Below are positions 3,074-12,860 of a stretch of 13,014 bases of DNA, piece after piece (positions within the stretch are counted from its first letter, which is position 1; each line of letters starts with the position of its first letter). Location of the stretch: NCBI GenBank assembly GCA_002720285.1, contig PBHT01000042.1:3895-16908 (forward strand), in the 5' to 3' direction. Under the pieces are notes generated by a model. It did no database searches, was not told the DNA's origin, and saw nothing but the letters and a program-made list of their open reading frames with translations. The stretch comes from Acidobacteriota bacterium (GTDB lineage: Bacteria; Acidobacteriota; Vicinamibacteria; Vicinamibacterales; UBA823). Made by a program: the position numbers and the translations under genes.

Positions 3074-3343
3074 AGGAACCTGCCACCACTGTTGCCGAGT
3101 CTGGCTTTATGCCGTGACCCTTTATTATCTGTTATAGAAAACAGTAACATAGAAAAATCAAACTGGTCATGAAGAATCCACGCATGTCGGACCTGCTGGT
3201 GAATCACGGCATTTGGTATATCGACACTTCAGATTTAATGCATTCGTACTCAAGGCCATTGAGCCGGTCCCAAATGCAGCCCTTTAATTTGCGAGAAATG
3301 TGTCATGATGACGCCCGGGTTCGTGGTGGGAGAAGCAGAGACG
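3074..3343. promoter_or_regulatory. Divergent intergenic region with repeats near the ATPase start
   Basis: A stretch of about 270 bases between two divergently transcribed genes, with no coding ORF I can support. At 3129-3144 there is a short dyad, CTGTT and AACAG around 6 nt, and the 8-mer ATAGAAAA occurs twice with 15-bp spacing (3134-3141 and 3149-3156). The AT-rich part at about 3121-3160 is a likely promoter or operator site for the minus-strand importer operon. The plus-strand promoter for the TsaA-like gene should also lie here, but I see no convincing -35/-10 pair. Confidence 0.35.
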
Positions 3344-3802
3344 ATGATTGAAGTTATTCCCATTGGCTATGTTCGTGGTGGTCGGGAGAAGGCCCGGGAT
3401 GACTATTGGGCCCGTGAGCAGGCTTCTATTGAACTTGACGGCGAGCAATTCGCGACTGATGCCTTGGCCGGATTAGAACAGTTCTCCCATGCAGAAGTCG
3501 TGTTTCATTTTCATAAAATGGATCAGACGAAGATTGTCTCAACGGCCCGGCACCCCCGCAACAATTGCGATTGGCCTGAGATTGGCATATTTTCTCAACG
3601 CGGTCGGGCCCGGCCCAACCGCATAGGCGTCACGGTTTGCGCGATTGTTGCTATCAATCGCCTGTGGTTGTCCGTGCGGGGCCTGGACGCCATCGACGGC
3701 ACCCCGGTTCTGGATATAAAGCCGTATTTGAACGGTTTTGCACCGCGTGGCACTGTGCGGGAACCTGACTGGGCTCGCGAGATTATGGCGGATTATTGGT
3801 AG
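3344..3802 (+). CDS. TsaA/TrmO-like tRNA methyltransferase domain protein
   Basis: A 152-residue protein of the TsaA (YaeB, VirR) family. In E. coli the TrmO member is a SAM-dependent enzyme that methylates N6-threonylcarbamoyladenosine at position 37 of some threonine tRNAs. Family motifs are clear: IPIGYV at the start, FSHAEVVFHFH, RHPRNN (69-74), GIFSQRGRARPNRIGVT (81-97), GLDAIDGTPVLDIKPY (113-128) and PDWA (141-144). E. coli TrmO is about 235 residues; here the C-terminal domain is absent, as in many short homologues, so the substrate may differ. The ATG at 3344 is preferred because homology begins there and GGGAGA lies upstream, though with long spacing; an ATG at 3305 would add 13 residues. 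It appears monocistronic, 130 nt before the next gene. Confidence 0.85.
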   Translation: MIEVIPIGYVRGGREKARDDYWAREQASIELDGEQFATDALAGLEQFSHAEVVFHFHKMDQTKIVSTARHPRNNCDWPEIGIFSQRGRARPNRIGVTVCAIVAINRLWLSVRGLDAIDGTPVLDIKPYLNGFAPRGTVREPDWAREIMADYW

Positions 3803-3878
3803 TCACCACCAGAAGACGGTTATTTTCCATTCCGGCGCCCTAAATTTATCCCGGGCAGTTCCGCAGGCACCGTCAGGT

Positions 3879-3904
3879 TATAGTTGGAAATTTCTGCTAT
3901 AGTT
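3879..3904 (+). promoter_or_regulatory. Possible promoter or operator before the first VOC gene
   Basis: The 7-mer TATAGTT occurs twice 19 bp apart (3879-3885, 3898-3904), with the palindrome GAAATTTC (3887-3894) between. The second copy resembles a -10 box and lies about 30 nt before the ATG at 3933. No good -35 box was found, so this could be a regulator site as well as a promoter. The rest of 3803-3932 shows nothing else I can name. Confidence 0.3.
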
Positions 3905-3932
3905 CAACACTAGTTTAGAATAGGGGGCCGCC

Positions 3933-4571
3933 ATGGCTATTTCGGGTATCAATCATCTCGCCTTCATCACCCATGACCTGGAGGCTACAATCCGATTTTA
4001 CCGGGACCTTTTGGGCATGACGCTGGAGGCCGGGGTAGGTCACGGCGGCTTCCGTCATTATTTTTTCCGCGCCGGTGAGGCTCAGGTGGCTTTCTTCGCC
4101 TACCAGGGAGCTTCTGCCATGCGGCCAAAAAGTCATGGCACGCCCACGCAAGAACCCATCGGCTTTGACCATGTTTCTCTGACCTGCGATACACGTGAGG
4201 ATTTATTCGCCTTCAAGGACAAATTGGAAGCGGCAGGCTTCGAGGTTTCCGGTGCCGTCGATCATGGCTTGTTGTGGTCGATATATTTTTACGATCCCAA
4301 CAATATCCCTTTGGAGATCAGTTGGGATATCATGAAGGTAACCCAACCCCCAGCGGTTTCGGACGACATGCCGCTTGACATTGTGGCTGAGGGGGCCGAG
4401 CCGCAGCCCGGGGTCTGGCCGGAGGTAACCAATCGGACCCCGGTGGAGCAGATGGTTGCTCATGCCGGCAATGGTCATGACATGCGGAACACTGCACTGT
4501 CGGAAAATCGCGGCGTGTATACGGATGAATACCGAGCTTTTATTGAAGCCCATTCGAACGCTGCTGAATAA
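3933..4571 (+). CDS. VOC-family (glyoxalase/dioxygenase fold) protein with C-terminal extension
   Basis: A 212-residue protein with one vicinal-oxygen-chelate domain in residues about 4-132: two beta-alpha-beta-beta-beta units, with H8 (INHLAF), H80 (GFDHVSL) and E128 (IPLEISWD) at the usual metal-ligand positions. VOC enzymes use a divalent metal to act on vicinal oxygens, as in lactoylglutathione lyase, methylmalonyl-CoA epimerase, extradiol dioxygenases and fosfomycin-modifying enzymes; which reaction applies here cannot be told. Residues about 135-212 are an extra tail with no recognised domain, ending TDEYRAFIEAH. The ATG at 3933 has a strong AGGGGG site. It is the first gene of the plus-strand group that continues with the LivM permease and a second VOC protein. 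Confidence 0.85.
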   Translation: MAISGINHLAFITHDLEATIRFYRDLLGMTLEAGVGHGGFRHYFFRAGEAQVAFFAYQGASAMRPKSHGTPTQEPIGFDHVSLTCDTREDLFAFKDKLEAAGFEVSGAVDHGLLWSIYFYDPNNIPLEISWDIMKVTQPPAVSDDMPLDIVAEGAEPQPGVWPEVTNRTPVEQMVAHAGNGHDMRNTALSENRGVYTDEYRAFIEAHSNAAE

Positions 4572-4584
4572 TCATACCCATAGG

Positions 4585-4615
4585 GTGACTTCGGCCTAGA
4601 CCGCGTTTATATAAT
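4585..4615 (+). promoter_or_regulatory. Candidate sigma-70-like promoter before the LivM gene
   Basis: An exact TATAAT at 4610-4615 lies 19 bp after GTGACT (4585-4590), which matches TTGACA only in part. The site is 116 nt before the TTG start of the permease gene, in the 159-nt gap after the VOC gene. The gap also holds a small dyad, AACGT-G-ACGTT (4646-4656), and a GC-rich hairpin, GGGCG-TTG-CGCCC (4672-4684), which could regulate the permease. All are predictions from sequence only. Confidence 0.35.
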
Positions 4616-4730
4616 AACGGACCATGCCGCTGCTTTTTTGGGGTTAACGTGACGTTTTCCGGATTGTCTATGGGCGTTGCGCCCGCGCGCGCTAGTGCTT
4701 TGGCCTCATCAAATTTCATGAGCTGAGGCC

Positions 4731-5738
4731 TTGCGTGATCCGAAGAAAATTCCGGCGCGCCCGGATCGTGACTTGGGCGCCATACCCCCATCTTGGCGGC
4801 GGACGGCAATTACCCTGTTCCTGGTCGCGGCGGTGGTGCTGCCGTTCGTCACAGAGGGCTACACCACCTATCGCCTGGCCATGGTTGGTGCCTTGGCGAT
4901 CGCGATCCTGGGGATCAACCTGCTGACCGGTCTCAGCGGCCAGTTTTCCATCGGTCACGGGGCGTTTTTCGCCATCGGGGCCTACACCACCTCCATCGCT
5001 ATGTCCCACGGCGGGCTGTCCGCTTATAGCGCCCTGCCGCTGGCGGCGGTGGTCTCGTTCACGGCGGGATTTCTGATCGGCTGGCCGGCCCTGCGCCTGA
5101 GCCTGGTGCACTTAATGCTGATGACCTGGAGTTTGTCCCTGGCCCTGCCTCAGGTCCTGAAACTGGATGCTCTGAGCCCCTGGACAGGCGGCGTCAGTGG
5201 CGTTTATCTGGACCGGCCGGATCCTCCTGCTTGGCTGGGCCTGAGCGATGATCAGTATTGGTACTTCGTAACCTTGATCTTCATGCTGGGGCTAATCTGG
5301 CTGGCCACGAACCTGTTCAACAGCCGGTCTGGTCGAGCGTTGGGCGCTATTCGCGATAATGAGATAGCTGCCGCACCCATGGGCATTAACGTGGCCATAT
5401 TTAAGACGACGATCTTCGGTATATCCGCTATGTACGCAGGCATCGGCGGCGCCTTGACCGGCCTGCTGGCGGACTTCGTAGCGCCCGATACCTACAGCCT
5501 GTTCTTTTCCATTCTGTTGTTAGCCGGTGCCGTCATGGCGGGGATCTATTCCGTTTGGGGCGCTGTGGTGGGCAGCATGCTGGTGCTCTATCTGCCCGCC
5601 GCCCTGCCGACCAGCTTGGCCCTGATGCCCATTGGCTTCATCGTTCTGGCGGTGGCATTCGTGATGCCGGGCGGCATTTCTGGTCTTTTGTTGCGAAAAT
5701 ATCGCCAATTCGCGCTGCGCCGAGAACTACATCATTAG
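4731..5738 (+). CDS. livM: LivM-type branched-chain amino acid ABC transporter permease
   Basis: A 335-residue multi-spanning inner-membrane permease of the LivM family, which pairs with LivH in LivFGHMJ-type importers for branched-chain amino acids, urea, amides or aromatic acids. Characteristic parts are GQFSIGHGAFFAIGAY (70-85), TGGVSGV (152-158) and the cytoplasmic ATPase-contact loop SGRALGAIRDNEIAAAPMGI (200-219). About eight hydrophobic segments are visible. The start is odd: an in-frame TGA lies 12 nt upstream and no ATG or GTG offers a full-length start, so TTG at 4731 is chosen, with GAGG only 2 nt away. No LivH, LivG, LivF or binding protein is in the window; the neighbours are VOC and crotonase genes. 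The family call is firm; the substrate and partners are unknown. Confidence 0.85.
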   Translation: MRDPKKIPARPDRDLGAIPPSWRRTAITLFLVAAVVLPFVTEGYTTYRLAMVGALAIAILGINLLTGLSGQFSIGHGAFFAIGAYTTSIAMSHGGLSAYSALPLAAVVSFTAGFLIGWPALRLSLVHLMLMTWSLSLALPQVLKLDALSPWTGGVSGVYLDRPDPPAWLGLSDDQYWYFVTLIFMLGLIWLATNLFNSRSGRALGAIRDNEIAAAPMGINVAIFKTTIFGISAMYAGIGGALTGLLADFVAPDTYSLFFSILLLAGAVMAGIYSVWGAVVGSMLVLYLPAALPTSLALMPIGFIVLAVAFVMPGGISGLLLRKYRQFALRRELHH

Positions 5739-5765
5739 CGGTTTCGATCTAGGAGATCTTATAGC

Positions 5766-5840
5766 GTGAAAATGCGTCCAACTTTTTGGCATAACGTCAC
5801 TAAAGAGCTAGTAGTCTCGGCAGAAAGGAATGAGAGATGA
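5766..5840 (+). CDS. Possible 24-residue leader ORF overlapping the next start
   Basis: A 24-codon ORF starting GTG at 5766 (or ATG at 5772), with AGGAG at 5751-5755, 10 nt upstream. It encodes VKMRPTFWHNVT and so on, and ends in a TGA that overlaps the ATG of the second VOC gene as ATGA. Such overlaps usually mean translational coupling. It could be a real small protein, a coupling leader, or chance in a 98-nt gap. No homology is recognised. Confidence 0.3.
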   Translation: MKMRPTFWHNVTKELVVSAERNER

Positions 5841-6289
5841 TCGAAGTTAATGGCATGGCTCATGTCATACTTACCGTCAGTCAATATGATGCTGCTAAGA
5901 CCTTTTATGGGCAGCTGATGCCTGCTCTGGGCTTGGAGAATGTCTTTGACGGCGAAAATATGTGCTATTTTGTTGGTGCTCGAACTGCCCTGGGAATTCA
6001 ACCCTGCTTGCCTGAATATGCAGGTGAGAGGTTCAAGCAGGGGCGTGTAGGTTTGCATCACATATGCTTTCGCGCTCGGTCCCGTGAAGACGTGGATCAG
6101 GTTGAAGGGCTACTCCGTGATATGGGAGCCCGTATCGTCAGCCCGGCCAAGGATGGCCCCTGGGCGCCCGGCTATTACTATGTCTTGTGCGAGGACCCTG
6201 ACGGCATTCGGGTAGAAATCAACTATGTGCCAGGTCACGGCGTGCTGGCAGAAGACGCCGGTTTCAATCCCGCTGACGATTGGCATTAG
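5837..6289 (+). CDS. VOC-family metalloenzyme, short form
   Basis: A 150-residue single-domain VOC protein. H9 (MAHVIL), H74 or H75 (GLHHICF) and E127 (GIRVEINYVPG) occupy the metal-ligand positions, and CEDPDGIRVE is the usual closing strand of glyoxalase-fold proteins. It probably works as a dimer, as most single-domain members do. It differs clearly from the first VOC protein upstream, so it is not a simple recent duplicate. The ATG at 5837 has AGAAAGGA upstream and overlaps the stop of a possible short leader ORF. The crotonase gene follows 24 nt later, so the two are probably co-transcribed. The specific reaction (epimerase, lyase, dioxygenase or binding protein) is not decided by the sequence. 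Confidence 0.85.
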   Translation: MIEVNGMAHVILTVSQYDAAKTFYGQLMPALGLENVFDGENMCYFVGARTALGIQPCLPEYAGERFKQGRVGLHHICFRARSREDVDQVEGLLRDMGARIVSPAKDGPWAPGYYYVLCEDPDGIRVEINYVPGHGVLAEDAGFNPADDWH

Positions 6290-6313
6290 CAAAGGCTTTT
6301 TTGGAGAAAAATT

Positions 6314-7072
6314 ATGGATCTCACCACCGTCGAGTATGAGAAAAAAGGCCATATCGCCTATGTCGCCTTGAACCGGCCGGACAAACTGAATGCTATGGAC
6401 GCAACTATGCATGAGGAACTAGGCCAGGTCTGGCAGGATTTTCAGGCGGATCCGAAATTGCGTGCCGCGATTTTGTCCGGTAACGGACGGTGTTTCAGTG
6501 CTGGCGCCGATTTGTCCGGTGGGGCGCCGGAAAACTACAAATACACTGGTAATTTCCCGGATATCACTCGTACAAGGGGCGTCTACAAACCCATCGTTGC
6601 CGCCCTGCACAGCCATTGTGTTGGTTATGGGATGTGGATCGCCATGGACACGGACATCCGCATCGCGACGGCGGATGTTTCTTTCTGGCTGCCTGAACCG
6701 CAGTGGGGCATCGCGACCATTCCGGCAGCCTGGTTTCCCCGCATCATGCCGTGGGCCATCGCGTCGGAATTATTGCTATCCGCCGACCGTGTTAATGCCG
6801 AACGAGCGCGCGAGGTGGGTTTGATCAACAAGGTAGTGGCTGATGATCAGCTTATGGCCGAAGCAGAGAAGGCGGCCCATCGTTTGGCAGAACTAAGCCC
6901 CAAGGCGGTGCAGGGTATGAAAGAGCTAATGGTACGCGGGTCGTCCCTGGATTACACGGCGGTGGATCAAGTTACCAATTTCGTTCAGACACGGGTGATG
7001 AATTCCAATGACAGAAAGGTGGGTGCTCAGGCATTCGCCAGCAAAAAAACGCCGGAATGGCCTGACGAATAG
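6314..7072 (+). CDS. Enoyl-CoA hydratase/isomerase (crotonase) family protein
   Basis: A 252-residue crotonase-fold protein that should bind an acyl-CoA thioester in the cytoplasm. The oxyanion-hole elements are present: CFSAGADL (60-67) and HCVGYGMW (101-108). In rat enoyl-CoA hydratase two glutamates, Glu144 and Glu164, activate water. Here the second is E128 (LPEPQWGIATIP), but the first position falls on W108 (GYGMWIAM), so standard hydration is doubtful; isomerase, hydrolase, lyase or decarboxylase chemistry is more plausible. TIPAAWFPRI replaces the usual Gly-rich PGxGG. GGAGA precedes the ATG at 6314 at good distance. The next crotonase gene starts 10 nt after its stop, so both are surely in one operon, perhaps acting in sequence or as a mixed complex. 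Confidence 0.88.
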   Translation: MDLTTVEYEKKGHIAYVALNRPDKLNAMDATMHEELGQVWQDFQADPKLRAAILSGNGRCFSAGADLSGGAPENYKYTGNFPDITRTRGVYKPIVAALHSHCVGYGMWIAMDTDIRIATADVSFWLPEPQWGIATIPAAWFPRIMPWAIASELLLSADRVNAERAREVGLINKVVADDQLMAEAEKAAHRLAELSPKAVQGMKELMVRGSSLDYTAVDQVTNFVQTRVMNSNDRKVGAQAFASKKTPEWPDE

Positions 7073-7082
7073 GAGTGTCTTA

Positions 7083-7868
7083 ATGGATTATGAATGCATC
7101 CAGGTGGAAAGGGGGGGTGAGGTCGCCGTGGTGACCTTTAATAGGCCGGAAAAGGCCAATGCTCTAAATTACCGCCATATTGAGGAAATCGAGCATGCGG
7201 CACTAAGTTTTAGGGATGACGAAGCTGCGCGCGTGGTCATTTTTACCGGTGCAGGCAAGCATTTTAATTCAGGCGCCGATCTGACGGCTAAAGACCCGGA
7301 GCACGCTCTCTTGACGGTTCGCCGGCGACGTCGGCGCATCGGCCAACACTGTATCCAGGCCATCCTGGATATGGATCAAATCACCATTGCTGCATGGAGG
7401 GGCGCGGCCATGGGAGGTGGCGCTTGTCTTGCCACGGCCATGGATTTTCGTGTTGGTGCCAAGGACTGCTTTATGTCCTATCCGGAGATCTTGATTGGCG
7501 TGAACTTGATGTGGCAGAGCCTGCCGCTCTTGGTGCATTTGGTAGGTCCTGCCCGTGCCAAGCAGTTAGTCATCAGTGGCAAGCATGTTCCGGGACCGAC
7601 TTTGTTTGAGTGGGGAGCTTTGGACGAGATTGTGGAAACGCACCAAGTCACGGACAAGGCGATGGAATGGGCTAGCCATTATGCCGCCCTGCCGCCCGTA
7701 CCGGCGCAAATGATTAAGCGTAGCGTGAACGCTATCACTTCCGCACTCGACAGGTCCGTCATGCACGCGGATTTTGACCAGCATTTACTAGCCGAAGACA
7801 CCACTGACCGAAACGAGGCCGTAGCGGCATATCTCGAAAAACGGTCACCCAAATTCAAGGGTAATTGA
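7083..7868 (+). CDS. Second enoyl-CoA hydratase/isomerase (crotonase) family protein
   Basis: A 261-residue crotonase-fold protein. Oxyanion-hole segments are HFNSGADL (60-67) and AAMGGGACLA (108-117). The position of rat Glu144 is C115, while Glu164 corresponds to E135 (YPEILIGV), so like its neighbour it keeps only one catalytic glutamate. Residues 80-85 are six consecutive arginines, encoded by CGC CGG CGA CGT CGG CGC, in the region after the oxyanion segment where CoA phosphates may lie. The frame is open upstream to 7008 inside the preceding gene, but ATG 7083 is chosen because AGGAG lies 7 nt before it. It is low in similarity to the first crotonase apart from family motifs, so the pair is not a recent duplication. 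Substrate unknown. Confidence 0.88.
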   Translation: MDYECIQVERGGEVAVVTFNRPEKANALNYRHIEEIEHAALSFRDDEAARVVIFTGAGKHFNSGADLTAKDPEHALLTVRRRRRRIGQHCIQAILDMDQITIAAWRGAAMGGGACLATAMDFRVGAKDCFMSYPEILIGVNLMWQSLPLLVHLVGPARAKQLVISGKHVPGPTLFEWGALDEIVETHQVTDKAMEWASHYAALPPVPAQMIKRSVNAITSALDRSVMHADFDQHLLAEDTTDRNEAVAAYLEKRSPKFKGN

Positions 7869-7939
7869 ACGGACAGGCCGACTGAAATTTGTAACAGAAT
7901 TTTTTTAAAATATTTGCGTTAGAGGAGGTGGCTAATTTC
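7869..7939 (+). promoter_or_regulatory. AT-rich gap before the phosphatase gene
   Basis: This 71-nt gap contains TTGTAA at 7889 followed by a T-rich and A-rich stretch to about 7915, then a very strong ribosome site, GAGGAGG, at 7922-7928. The AT-rich part may hold a promoter for the phosphatase, or act as the weak terminator tail of the crotonase operon; the hairpin before the T-run is poor. The two cannot be separated by eye. Confidence 0.3.
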
Positions 7940-8674
7940 ATGGAGCGGCGAATTGAACTGGAAGGCGTTTCGAATTTCCGGGATCTGGGTGGTTACGAAA
8001 CTGCAGATGGCAAGACGGTGAAATGGCGAACCTTCTTTCGTTCGGATACGTTGGCTGCTTTGACTGACGCGGATATGGCCAAGGTATGCGGGTTGGGAGT
8101 GAATACTGCGGTCGACTTGCGATATGGCGACGAACGAGCGGAGGAGCCCTCTCGGTTCCTGGGCCACGATCAGGTTGAGGTGTTGGCCCTGGGATTGGAC
8201 GAACGGCCCAGTGCCTCGTTTCTAGATTCTTTTGAGGTTGCCGACGACGCGGCTGCGTTTGCCCGGTCATACATGGCCGATCATTACAAAAACTATCCTT
8301 TCCTCTATGCCAGAGGTTACGGCACCCTGATGCAACGTCTGGCGCAGGGGGAGAAGTGCATTGTGCATTGTACCGCTGGCAAGGACCGGGCTGGTACGGG
8401 TGCGGCTATAGTCCTTTCGGCCCTGGGCGTACCGCGGGAAACGGTGTTCGAGGATTATTTGTTAACCAATAAATATTGGGACCGCGCAGGGCGGGAACGC
8501 CCTGACATGGATGTGGAGACCGTCGCATCCATCTTTTCTGCGCGCGAGGAGTATTTATACGGAGCCTTCAAGGCGATTGAGGATCAATGCGGCACCGTTA
8601 AGAAATATCTGAACGAAGTTCTTCAACTGGACGATGGCGCTATTGCCAGGCTGCGATCGGCTTGCTTGACTTGA
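7940..8674 (+). CDS. Tyrosine-protein phosphatase-like protein (CX5R family)
   Basis: A 244-residue cysteine phosphatase of the type often annotated as tyrosine/serine phosphatase (Y_phosphatase3, related to fungal Siw14). The P-loop is VHCTAGKDRAGTG, with nucleophile C144 and phosphate-binding R150. Upstream are the family motifs SNFRDLGGY (11-19), FFRSD (32-36) and the TAVDLR segment (56-61), and D65 or nearby acids could serve in catalysis. Proteins of this type may dephosphorylate phosphotyrosine, phosphoinositides or inositol pyrophosphates; the bacterial substrate is unknown. A GTG at 7928 is in frame but lies inside the ribosome site GAGGAGG, so ATG 7940 is chosen. It follows the crotonases on the same strand, so it may be co-transcribed with them, but a functional link is only suggested. 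Confidence 0.87.
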   Translation: MERRIELEGVSNFRDLGGYETADGKTVKWRTFFRSDTLAALTDADMAKVCGLGVNTAVDLRYGDERAEEPSRFLGHDQVEVLALGLDERPSASFLDSFEVADDAAAFARSYMADHYKNYPFLYARGYGTLMQRLAQGEKCIVHCTAGKDRAGTGAAIVLSALGVPRETVFEDYLLTNKYWDRAGRERPDMDVETVASIFSAREEYLYGAFKAIEDQCGTVKKYLNEVLQLDDGAIARLRSACLT

Positions 8675-9530: not shown

Positions 9531-10781
9531 TCAATTTCCGCGCCGCCAGAAATGTGGCCAAAGCAGAGCGGCTACTAGTATAGCTGCTAGGCCTTCGATC
9601 GTGATGATGGTGACGGCTAAAGCGCCGCCGAACCAATCCGCCAGTATGCCTACCTGCAATATACCCAAAGGGTTGACACCGATGCAGACGGCAAGAACAC
9701 CCATTAGACGCCCCCGCATTTCTGGTGGGGCGGCAGTGAAGACAATGGTGGATTGCATGGCCGCAAATCCAGCCACACCAAGGCCTGATAGGAACAAAAA
9801 AACCAGGGATAGGGCGTAGAACTGCGACAGGGAAAAGGCCAGAACACCCCCAAGAAATACAATGGAGCAATAGAAATAGATGGCCGAGAAATGGTGCGGC
9901 CGGGCGAAGTTTGCGATCAACAAGGCTCCTGCTAGGGCACCCGCCGCGTCCGCCGACAGCAGCATCCCCGTGGCTACCGCGCCCTGACCCAAGATCTGAT
10001 CGCCAATCACCGGCACCATGGCGACGTAGGGAAAGCCAAAGATATTTATTGCCATGGTGATAAACAGCGTTCCCATAATTTTGGGGTTGGTGCGGATATA
10101 GCGCAGGCCCTCGACGATTTGCCCCAGAATGCGAGGTACGGCGTCGTCGTAATGGGGCGACTGGTATTGCGCTTTTAGTACTAGGAAAAATCCAAGGCTG
10201 AATAGCACGGCTCCGAAAACATAAACCCCAGGCAGTCCAAACCTAGTCAGCACCAGTCCGCCCAGCACCGGTCCGACGAGACGCATGCAATGGTTAGTGC
10301 CGCTGTCCAAAGTCAAGGCCACCCCAGCACCCGTTGCCCCGGCCTTGGCACCCGCGATAATGCCGAGCAAGGACCGGCGCACGGGATGTTCCAGGGTGCC
10401 GTAGATACCCGCGATAAACGTTCCAAGTGCCACGTGCCATAGTTCTATGCGCCCGGCAATGGCCAGGCCGGCCAAAACGGCCGAGGTCAAAGCAAGTACG
10501 CCCAATCCACCTAATAGCATCAGCCGTCGATCAAAACCGTCGGCGATGGCACCAGTAAATGCGCTAAACAACAACATAGGTACGGTGCGCGCCATGGTGA
10601 CTAAGGCCACCATAAGGGCCGATTGGGTGACTTCGAAGGTAAAGACGCCGATGGCTAGCATCTCCAGCCAGCGCATCATCCCACCTAGGGCTCCCGCTAA
10701 CCAGAAGCCACGGAAATTGACATCCCTGATTAGTGCTAACGGAGTTACGGTTTGAGCCGTCGTTGGCTCTTTAACGGACAA
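9531..10781 (-). CDS. MFS transporter (EntS-like MFS_3 type)
   Basis: A 416-residue inner-membrane secondary transporter with about twelve hydrophobic segments and a central hydrophilic loop near residues 205-230. The major-facilitator motif A is GAIADGFDRR (77-86) between helices 2 and 3, and a related signature, PPEMRGRLMGV, occurs in the C-terminal half. The first helix follows FRGFWLAGALG, typical of the MFS_3 group that includes the enterobactin exporter EntS, so efflux is favoured over uptake. The start is unusual: a TTG at 10781, only 9 nt after the stop of the selenoprotein gene and in the same frame, with GGAGG just 2 nt before it. Translation may rely on coupling to the gene ahead. 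Its link to that gene suggests export or uptake of a substrate or product of the pathway. Confidence 0.88.
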   Translation of the reverse strand: MSVKEPTTAQTVTPLALIRDVNFRGFWLAGALGGMMRWLEMLAIGVFTFEVTQSALMVALVTMARTVPMLLFSAFTGAIADGFDRRLMLLGGLGVLALTSAVLAGLAIAGRIELWHVALGTFIAGIYGTLEHPVRRSLLGIIAGAKAGATGAGVALTLDSGTNHCMRLVGPVLGGLVLTRFGLPGVYVFGAVLFSLGFFLVLKAQYQSPHYDDAVPRILGQIVEGLRYIRTNPKIMGTLFITMAINIFGFPYVAMVPVIGDQILGQGAVATGMLLSADAAGALAGALLIANFARPHHFSAIYFYCSIVFLGGVLAFSLSQFYALSLVFLFLSGLGVAGFAAMQSTIVFTAAPPEMRGRLMGVLAVCIGVNPLGILQVGILADWFGGALAVTIITIEGLAAILVAALLWPHFWRRGN

Positions 10782-10790
10782 GACCTCCGT

Positions 10791-11666
10791 TTAGTCGCCG
10801 GCTGCTGCTTCGGCCAGCCTGCGATCTTCCTCGAACTGATAACGCGGCATTGAATCACGAGGTGAGCGGACATCGTCAGCGCTTTGATCGTTCGCCGCCG
10901 TTTTCCATACATCCCCCCCGGGCCAGGCCTGATCCAAATGGATAATTTTGCCAGGCTCCCGCAGGCTCTCGCAAACTTCAAGTGCTTCTCGCGCGATGGA
11001 TAGTTGCTTGTCCGGATTGAACAGCGGACCGCCGCCATGACCCAGTGGAAAGTCCATAAACACTGAACGCGGTGGCCAGCCGAATTTTACAATATCCAAT
11101 GCTGTCGCCACCACCAGGGTGGGAATGCCGCGCTCTTCCAGGTAACGGGCGATCAGACACACGGTCTGATGGCACACGGGTCACAACGGGACGAGATAGG
11201 CCAGGTCCACATTCTCCTTGACGAGGGCTTCGTAAATCGTGGGGGCCACTTCCTTGTCCACCCGGCGTTTGGAATAGACCGCGCCCATACATGAAAATAC
11301 GTTTTCCGCCAAGCTGCCAATGAAGCCTTCATGGGCCAGCTTGCGAAGCGGTTCGAGGGGAAAGGCGCAGTTGGCGTCTCGGCGGGTGTCGGGAAGATAG
11401 TTTTCGGTCAGATGGGAAAAACGTAAATTCTCAACTGGAGTGTTGGATGGTATTACGCGATGGGAAGTGTCGTCTTTGTAAAAGTAGGCGGTTTGCCCAA
11501 GGGCATATGTGCCCGCAGTGGACATCATGCCGACCTTGCAGTCGGATAAAGGTTTCTGCAGGGGCGCCCAGGGCGGCGTTTCTTCGGTCTTATGCCAACC
11601 GTAGGGAGCGTAGCCGAGCTTACTATACTTCTCTCGGATGGTTCTCATGTATTCAACGGTGCTCAC
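10791..11666 (-). CDS. GrdB/PrdB-like selenoprotein with in-frame UGA (Sec)
   Basis: One 291-residue protein, read through a TGA at 11183-11181 as selenocysteine 162. It resembles the C-terminal half of selenoprotein B of glycine, betaine and D-proline reductases: KVGMMSTAGTYALG (44-57), HLTENYLPDTRRDANCAFPLEPLRKL in pieces at 85-110, EGFIGSLAENVF (113-124), then VDLAYLVPL-U-PVCHQTV and GIPT, and a closing DFPLGHGGGP like the HPLGNP of GrdB. U162 and C165 form a UxxC redox pair. Both sides of the TGA carry family homology in the same frame, so a simple stop is unlikely. GTG 11666 is preferred (AGGA 8 nt upstream); ATG 11681 would add five residues. GrdB is about 430 residues and PrdB about 240. 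Function here is unknown; SelA, SelB, SelC and SelD must be elsewhere. Alternatives are a nonsense pseudogene or sequencing error. Confidence 0.8.
11152..11183 (-). promoter_or_regulatory. Putative bacterial SECIS element after the UGA
   Basis: Read on the minus strand, the TGA at 11183-11181 is followed 10 nt later by ATCAGAC (11170-11164), loop CGTGT and GTCTGAT (11158-11152): a perfect 7-bp stem. Two more pairs extend it after one C-C mismatch. The apical loop begins 18 nt after the UGA and has G at its second position. This fits the known bacterial SECIS model: apical loop about 16-37 nt from UGA, G in the first two loop bases, recognised by SelB. It lies inside the coding region, as bacterial SECIS elements do. 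Confidence 0.72.
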
Positions 11667-11726
11667 GGCGCAATTCCTCATTTTTCTATTACGTGGATAA
11701 TAGTCCAGTTGGTTAAAGTGCTCAAC

Positions 11727-12860
11727 TTAGTCGCCAGTTAAGGCGCGGGAGATCACCAATTTCTGGATGTCATTAGTGCCCTCATAGATACTGTAGACGC
11801 GCACGTCACGTAGAATTTTGGCCACAGGAAAATCCTCCAGATAACCATAGCCGCCAAAGGTTTGCAGAGCATCAGAGGCTACTTTCTCGGCCATGTCCGA
11901 AGCGAAAAGTTTTGCCATAGAAGCTTCTTTCAAACTCGGTACGCCGCTTTGGTAGACTTGGGCAGCATGCAAATACAGTTGCCGTGCAGCCTCGATCTGG
12001 GTCGCCATGTCTGCCAGGCGAAAGGCTACCGCCTGATGCTCCATAATAGGCTTTTTGAAAGCCTCCCGCTCCTGGGCATAGGCCAGGGCGGCTTCATAAG
12101 CGGTCCGTGCCCCACCCACTGCTTGAGCTGCTACACCGATCCGTCCCACCGACAAGTTGGCGAGGGCAATGCCAAGACCCCGGCCTTCTTGTCCCAGCAA
12201 ATCAGTCTCCGGCACGACCATATCCTCGAACGTCAAGGCGCAAGTATCATTCGTCCTGTGGCCCAGCTTAATCTCCTCCCGAAGAACCTTGTAGCCGGGA
12301 TTACTTGTGGGCGTCAGAAAGGTGGAGATCCCCCGTTTCCCTGCCGTTGGATCAGTAACGGCGACGATCATGGCCACGCCAGCCCGCCGCCCGGCCGTGA
12401 TGAATTGCTTTTGCCCATTTAGAACGAAATTATTTCCCTGGCGCACCGCGCGGGTGGTTATAGCTGCGGCGTCCGATCCGGTATGGGGTTCCGTCAGGGC
12501 GAAACATCCGATCATTTCGCCAGTCGTCAGGCGAGGAAAGTAACGCTCCTTTTGTGCTTGAGTGCCGTGGTCTTGTAGGGCTGCTAGAACTGGGGAGTTA
12601 TTCGCAGCCATCAAGTTTGCAATCCCGCCGTCCGCAGCTGAGATTTCCTCCATGGCCAGAACGTAGGAGACGAAATCAGCTCCGGCGCCACCCCATTCAG
12701 GGTCAATGCAGATGCCCATAAGGCCCGCCTGGCCCAAATTTCTTAGTAAATTTTCCGAAACGCCTTGGGCTTCAAATTCCGTAAGGTAGGGCATGATTTC
12801 GGTCTGGGCGAACCGTCGGGCGGTCTCCTTGATCATGCGTTGTTGTTCGCTCAGGGTCAT
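11727..12860 (-). CDS. Acyl-CoA dehydrogenase
   Basis: A 377-residue FAD enzyme that oxidises an acyl-CoA to the 2-enoyl-CoA and passes electrons to electron-transfer flavoprotein. Signature 1 is CFALTEPHTGSDAA (119-132) and signature 2 is in QTFGGYGYLEDFP (333-345). The catalytic base is E360 in IYEGTNDIQ, the MCAD/SCAD position. Length is normal for the short/medium-chain group. ATG 12860 is chosen because MTLSEQQRMIKETARRFA is the usual family N-terminus. The frame stays open upstream to the window edge, but that part has no family similarity and no good start. It leads the minus-strand group with the selenoprotein gene 60 nt downstream and the MFS gene after it. Chain length or branched substrate cannot be told. 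Confidence 0.93.
   Translation of the reverse strand: MTLSEQQRMIKETARRFAQTEIMPYLTEFEAQGVSENLLRNLGQAGLMGICIDPEWGGAGADFVSYVLAMEEISAADGGIANLMAANNSPVLAALQDHGTQAQKERYFPRLTTGEMIGCFALTEPHTGSDAAAITTRAVRQGNNFVLNGQKQFITAGRRAGVAMIVAVTDPTAGKRGISTFLTPTSNPGYKVLREEIKLGHRTNDTCALTFEDMVVPETDLLGQEGRGLGIALANLSVGRIGVAAQAVGGARTAYEAALAYAQEREAFKKPIMEHQAVAFRLADMATQIEAARQLYLHAAQVYQSGVPSLKEASMAKLFASDMAEKVASDALQTFGGYGYLEDFPVAKILRDVRVYSIYEGTNDIQKLVISRALTGD

Follow-up and report, generated by a model that had tools for sequence, protein, structure and literature searches.

The window, that is, the whole stretch of 13,014 nucleotides that was analysed, carries on its minus strand two open reading frames, 11681-11181 (166 aa) and 11177-10791 (128 aa), which lie in the same frame and are parted by a single TGA at 11183-11181. 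When the frame is read through, a protein of 296 aa from the ATG at 11681 is obtained, containing LVPL-U-PVCHQ, and in this translation the TGA is seen at the U of a UxxC motif, as the earlier note had described it. The features of the locus are the following:

10791-11681, minus strand: putative selenoprotein gene, PrdB-like, read-through frame from the ATG; the likelier start is the GTG at 11666
11181-11183, minus strand: in-frame UGA, predicted selenocysteine, the U of UPVC; residue 162 from the GTG, 167 from the ATG
11152-11170, minus strand: bSECIS-type hairpin with a 7-bp stem and the 5-nt loop CGUGU; +14 to +32 from the U of the UGA
11727-12860, minus strand: acyl-CoA dehydrogenase gene, upstream in the same direction, ATG at 12860; motif IYEGTNDIQ, which presumably holds the catalytic Glu
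9531-10781, minus strand: MFS transporter gene, MFS_3/H+ antiporter-like, TTG start

A Shine-Dalgarno-like GAGGA lies about 8 bases 5' of the GTG at 11666, and the conservation seen in the alignment of homologues begins at around VSTVEYM; on these grounds the GTG would be the likelier start compared with the ATG at 11681, giving a product of 291 aa with selenocysteine at residue 162. Standard ORF calling splits genes of this PrdB-like family.

The UGA column and the hairpin behind it

A genome scan identified nine related loci in MAGs, with 54-78% identity to the window selenoprotein, eight of them recorded as Alphaproteobacteria or Rhodospirillaceae and one (L025) as Proteobacteria; within the order of the source assembly (G000), matches were found in 13 of 162 genomes, G000 included. 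The window copy and 24 homologues all have UGA at the Sec column (25 of 25), and the column is invariant in the alignment of 24 rows (A1) from which L042, a contig fragment with two extra TGA and one TAG, was omitted. This homologue fragment (L042/L085, G007:C178), which lies near a contig end and has further stops, reads UPIUHQ and has another UGA where the second Cys is expected. Across the phylum of the source assembly, 102 of 396 genomes gave a match; among the matches listed, all those above 216 bits contained one TGA or more, and TGA was lacking in many of the weaker matches. In five PrdB-type genes from plasmids (L089-L093) the same column is UGA; four of them are annotated as prdB and the fifth comes from an unannotated record. 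Cys is found there in L094 (Paraclostridium) and in the plasmid homologues L087 (Roseomonas haemaphysalidis) and L088 (Haematobacter massiliensis). The earlier note had looked to position 162 for Sec or Cys in homologues, and both occur at that column. An in-frame UGA, together with homologues that have Sec or Cys in its place, is what marks a bacterial selenoprotein.

Within the close clade, purifying selection is seen on both sides of the UGA, with pN below pS; for the C-terminal part, pN and pS were 0.052 and 0.488 between L023 and L024, 0.051 and 0.214 between L025 and L026, and 0.086 and 0.436 between L020 and L021. Ten bases separate the UGA from the stem of the hairpin, whose sequence is coding too. 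An Rfam search returned no family for the window or for the SECIS stretch, and covariation was therefore used to assess the hairpin. In 25 sequences (22 distinct), standard pairs filled 92.9% of the stem cells, compared with 76.0% when the sequences were shuffled and 22-36% when the stem was slid; for six of the seven stem pairs, one sequence or more had both partners changed, and the covariation score was 0.429 against 0.116 in shuffles. With 24 paralogues added, there were 49 sequences, 46 of them distinct; among these 46, the outermost pair was kept in 34, each of the other six pairs in at least 43, and G was the second loop base in 44. A bSECIS element has a G among its first loop bases, and a hairpin with such a G, just past the UGA, is what was found.

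Other explanations of the TGA, as a plain stop codon, an error in the sequence or a mark of gene decay, would agree with the standard rules, which make the C-terminal piece an ORF of its own, and with the folding energy of the hairpin, which in single-sequence folding is by itself unremarkable (z -0.88). Against it stand the UGA in all 25 copies, the selection past the UGA and the SECIS covariation, and such an explanation is scarcely credible. Taken with the selection on both sides, the same evidence bears out what the earlier note had held, namely that the split pair is one selenoprotein gene, with the UGA almost certainly decoded as selenocysteine.

Neighbouring genes, source genome and paralogues

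The gene order acyl-CoA dehydrogenase, selenoprotein, MFS transporter recurs among the relatives. In the window, the acyl-CoA dehydrogenase gene ends 60 bases before the selenoprotein GTG, and the MFS gene starts 9 bases past the selenoprotein stop, with GGAGG in between. An MFS gene lies directly downstream in seven of the nine related loci, being absent in L020 and L028. A closely similar acyl-CoA dehydrogenase gene is found upstream on the same strand in six of the nine (L020, L022, L023, L025, L026 and L027), directly adjacent in four and at 0.9 kb in L023 and 2.5 kb in L026, and the acyl-CoA setting remarked upon in the earlier note is thus a recurring one. A close acyl-CoA dehydrogenase next to the selenoprotein was not seen in L021, L028 and L024, the last of which is near a contig end, with just 769 bases before the selenoprotein gene. 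As a hint to function, the association is only suggestive. The contig G164:C520 ends inside the start of a selenoprotein gene that is preceded by the same acyl-CoA dehydrogenase, beyond which LivM-like and glyoxalase-like genes are found; it overlaps L022 with 91% DNA identity over 692 bases, which makes it a strain variant or a second copy. The recurring MFS gene, the SECIS hairpin and the paralogues described below were absent from the earlier note.

Further genes lie around these operons. On the plus strand, the window holds at 3305-8674 a run of TsaA-like, glyoxalase-like, LivM-like, glyoxalase, two crotonase and tyrosine-phosphatase-like genes, the names TsaA, LivM and that of the first glyoxalase being ones that we presume; in most relatives, matches to this run are on other contigs or far off. 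A molybdopterin oxidoreductase gene, which encodes about 960 aa and is truncated in L024, lies outside the window; it is found downstream in four of the nine relatives, near the selenoprotein operon:

L020:7038-11626, molybdopterin oxidoreductase
L023:8278-12843, molybdopterin oxidoreductase
L024:3092-5000, molybdopterin oxidoreductase
L026:8280-12864, molybdopterin oxidoreductase

In L020, it is followed by an Fe-S protein and a DmsC-like protein (Pfam), with homologues in part of the others, a set that we take, by its sizes, to recall the SoeABC sulfite dehydrogenase. As a core part of the system, with sulfite release of the SoeABC kind, this oxidoreductase was rejected: it is not found beside the other five loci, L022 and L028 included, some of which are cut by contig ends; its homologues in G000, in any case the wrong genome, are distant, with 36% identity at best; and no NCBIfam model scored above its cut-off for it.

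The source assembly G000 comprises 1.50 Mb and is 81% complete, and the contig of the window (C42) seems to be foreign to it, that is, mis-binned, judging from DNA matches and composition. The window DNA had no match in any of four genomes of the same genus, and in two of four further family members fragments of about 47-80 bases were found among the matches listed; long matches were obtained in eight of the nine proteobacterial MAGs and weaker ones in the ninth (G170). In tetranucleotide use, C42 correlated at 0.87-0.90 with the seven MAG stretches tested; for ten of the eleven further G000 contigs sampled, the value was 0.39-0.56. The source organism is probably a marine alphaproteobacterium. 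Horizontal transfer of the whole 16.9-kb contig, instead of mis-binning, is a less probable explanation. The exception among the sampled contigs is C2, with a correlation of 0.875 to C42; like C42, it seems to be proteobacterial and mis-binned.

Genes for Sec decoding were sought in both settings. In G000, selB, tRNA-Sec and a TGA-bearing selD are present, and selA gave a weak match only (43.5 bits, below the cut-off). As support for the decoding of the window gene, the sel genes of G000 were dropped, because the window contig seems mis-binned. Its selD (L009, G000:C11:13515-14444) has one in-frame TGA, and this SelD is probably itself a selenoprotein. Among the relatives, selA scored above the cut-off in all nine proteobacterial genomes, selB adjoined selA in the eight selA loci examined by tblastn (8 of 8), and the ORF after selA in G168 is selB with 408 bits. 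A tRNA-Sec was not found with Rfam in the selA-selB stretches of three relatives. In some Alphaproteobacteria, tRNA-Sec is described as nested in selB (parts of PMC13188914 and PMC9312934), an arrangement not seen in the selA-selB stretches of those three.

In the DNA search with the window, the relatives also gave short matches at other places, which surround the UGA. Among the matches listed, 24 more PrdB-like genes were recognised at 22 places, two of them only in flanks, and the UGA is present in all 24; the set is biased to Sec forms, since it was found through similarity at the UGA. With the window-type copy included and all counts being lower bounds, there are at least six copies in G169, at least five in G162 and G168, at least four in G165 and G167, at least three in G163 and G166, at least two in G164 and at least one in G170. 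Within the five genomes compared, the paralogues are 35-42% identical to the window-type copy, and most fall in the tree into groups common to several genomes. Neighbours were clustered across all loci, with Pfam applied to one representative each. Group A is accompanied in all seven loci by an acyl-CoA dehydrogenase, a CoA-transferase III and two DUF2817 genes; group B, in four of five loci, the fifth being cut by the contig, by an AMP-binding gene of the acyl-CoA ligase type; group C, in all three (L128, L142 and L146), by an amidohydrolase (Amidohydro_3), which we would guess to be a D-aminoacylase, and a D-serine-dehydratase-like gene; and group D by a glyoxalase-family gene in three of four loci and by an acyl-CoA dehydrogenase and a crotonase in two of four. 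Two copies, found in L135 and L147, form a group with L030 and are located near group A copies, and around L132, L136 and L138 no common neighbours of the group A-D kinds were seen.

Kinship with PrdB and GrdB

The earlier note had assigned the protein to GrdB- and PrdB-type selenoprotein B, and it is the PrdB part of this assignment that stands. The NCBIfam PrdB model TIGR04483 matches residues 36-249, across the UGA, with an E value of 2.5e-39. GrdB models reached 24-30 bits, so that the kinship with PrdB (135 bits) is far stronger, and Pfam GRDB (PF07355) gave 19.1 bits, below its 22-bit cut-off. PrdB and selenoprotein B models are the only NCBIfam matches of the window protein. With the GrdB/GrdF/GrdH selenoprotein B (PF07355, TIGR01918) it shares a weak local likeness around Sec, at residues 100-198, whereas the GrdB-type NCBIfam models are about 430 aa long against 291-296 aa here, and a GrdE-type partner was not found in the nine relatives.

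The likeness to PrdB of D-proline reductase consists of homology over about 215 residues, with Sec at the same column followed by xxCH. However, the score of 135.1 bits does not reach the curated equivalog cut-off of 300, and PrdB of L090, which lies next to prdA, scored 406.7 bits. Where UGTCHR stands in the plasmid PrdB genes, the window protein reads UPVCHQ, and it extends past the PrdB-aligned part at both ends, by a helix at the N-terminus and some 45 residues at the C-terminus. The operon also differs from that of PrdB, prdA adjoining prdB in L090, L092 and L093. A PrdA/GrdE-type partner (PF09338) was detected in none of the nine relatives and not in G000, while both control plasmids were positive; the relatives being MAGs, a single absence of the partner is weak, nine together are not. 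From these comparisons, the window protein is very probably PrdB-like without being a D-proline reductase. The plasmid prdB of Peptoclostridium acidaminophilum (L089:5019-5732), which has an in-frame UGA, shows no annotated prdA within 5 kb in the gene table used, an incomplete one.

Another system with some likeness is the farACEB operon of fluoroacetate reductase, for which GrdB-like Sec proteins, an MFS transporter and a proposed reductive C-F cleavage are described in parts of PMC10838667. The likeness lies in a Sec protein of this kind together with an MFS transporter; the differences are that farACEB belongs to an anaerobe, includes the GrdE-like farE and a radical SAM protein, and is of the GrdB type, not the PrdB type (PMC10838667).

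The AlphaFold model of the window protein (pLDDT 86.2, pTM 0.88) places Sec between a strand at 160-164 and a helix at 168-183. Foldseek against solved structures gave no match at E below 0.001, the best having E 0.017, and sequence searches of the PDB gave no believable relative; the best PDB profile match (E 3e-05) aligned 33 residues with a designed repeat protein, none of its stretches passed individually, and it was put down to chance. With no convincing fold match, the mechanism is not readable from the structure.

The name of the family is not new, and the earlier note was right that it is already in print and linked to marine metagenomes, since marine "PrdB" selenoproteins were reported in the Sargasso and GOS surveys of 2005 and 2008 (parts of PMC1088965 and PMC2398784). 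In the Sargasso Sea set, PrdB is the third most abundant known selenoprotein family, with 42 Sec sequences and one Cys sequence, and was assigned to D-proline reduction (PMC1088965); GOS holds 235 Sec and 110 Cys PrdB sequences (PMC2398784), and given these 110 homologues Sec would not be obligatory for the PrdB-like family. For proline reductase, a 2016 survey counted 131 selenoproteins, spread over 110 organisms (PMC5029168). The window protein is likened to the marine "PrdB" by description, through the label, the UxxC motif and the marine habitat (PMC1088965, PMC2398784). No operon or paralogue analysis was found in the parts of these two surveys consulted, and the main text of PMC2398784 nowhere uses the terms operon, duplication or multiple copies. 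For the paralogues, the operon and the missing partner, no description was found in print within a literature that includes parts of PMC1088965, PMC2398784, PMC1794560, PMC13188914, PMC12013277, PMC5029168 and PMC9312934, supplements, most subscription papers and preprints being outside its scope. Within that scope, what is apparently new is that the diverged Sec paralogues of a single marine genome can number up to at least six, and that several of the paralogue groups have conserved neighbours of their own, of acyl-CoA or amino-acid type.

Predicted function and its alternatives

Known GrdB/PrdB enzymes work with a pyruvoyl-type partner, and since none was found in the relatives, the chemistry may differ from theirs. 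The best reading is a stand-alone Sec reductase predicted to act on a carbon-heteroatom or similar bond, which we consider rather probable; that it performs reductive bond cleavage in an acyl-CoA-linked pathway is a more tentative prediction, about which doubt slightly prevails. SelB and Sec-tRNA would decode the UGA, placing Sec just before the helix that follows a strand, where its selenolate could attack an electrophilic carbon substituent. The bonds addressed might be C-N, C-S, C-halogen or similar ones, in a small organic acid or its CoA ester. The second Cys would serve as resolver, releasing Sec as a selenenylsulfide that a cellular dithiol would then reduce, so that the whole would amount to chemistry of the GrdB/PrdB type without the pyruvoyl partner. 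The product would feed the acyl-CoA pathway of the neighbouring genes, and the MFS protein may move the substrate or the leaving group. We infer this selenolate mechanism by analogy with GrdB/PrdB and with farACEB (parts of PMC10838667).

Two other functions have to be weighed against the reductase. A general redox selenoprotein, of thiol-disulfide or peroxide type, would account for the UxxC motif, as found in thioredoxin-like proteins, and the Sargasso survey places PrdB among the thiol-dependent redox selenoproteins (PMC1088965, Table 3). Yet the NCBIfam matches are confined to PrdB and selenoprotein B models, and most of the nine relatives have diverged paralogues, several groups of them with recurring metabolic neighbours of their own; substrate-specific enzymes fit this better than a housekeeping redox protein, and the general role is unlikely. 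The marine label PrdB implies instead a subunit of a true D-proline (or glycine/betaine) reductase, to which the best NCBIfam match (TIGR04483), the extent of the homology and the coinciding Sec column would lend support, the more so as L089, an annotated prdB, is likewise without an annotated prdA nearby. Such an assignment is nevertheless very improbable in view of the score far from that of the L090 PrdB, the UPVCHQ motif, the lack of a PrdA/GrdE-type match in all nine relatives where the controls were positive, and the lack of a prdA beside the gene.

Within the preferred reading of a stand-alone reductase, a wider proposal can be made, which is possible although we regard it as more doubtful than the function predicted for the single gene. 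Marine Alphaproteobacteria may have a large clan of stand-alone, substrate-specific Sec reductases with the PrdB fold, present in several diverged copies in most genomes seen, which would cleave carbon-heteroatom bonds reductively without a pyruvoyl partner; several of its groups would each have particular neighbours, of the acyl-CoA, CoA-transferase, ligase or D-amino-acid type.

Among the selenoproteins of ocean metagenomes, one of the more frequent families bears the name of an anaerobic proline reductase, a name that points to a pathway whose partner gene was not found in the relatives; here its genes are met without that partner, several to a genome and among genes of the acyl-CoA type. 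If the clan exists as proposed, what the surveys report as an abundant marine "proline reductase" would be this clan and not a proline reductase. If the reductive function is correct, selenium-dependent bond-cleaving chemistry would take place in marine bacteria, and the operons found are concrete places in which to seek its substrates.
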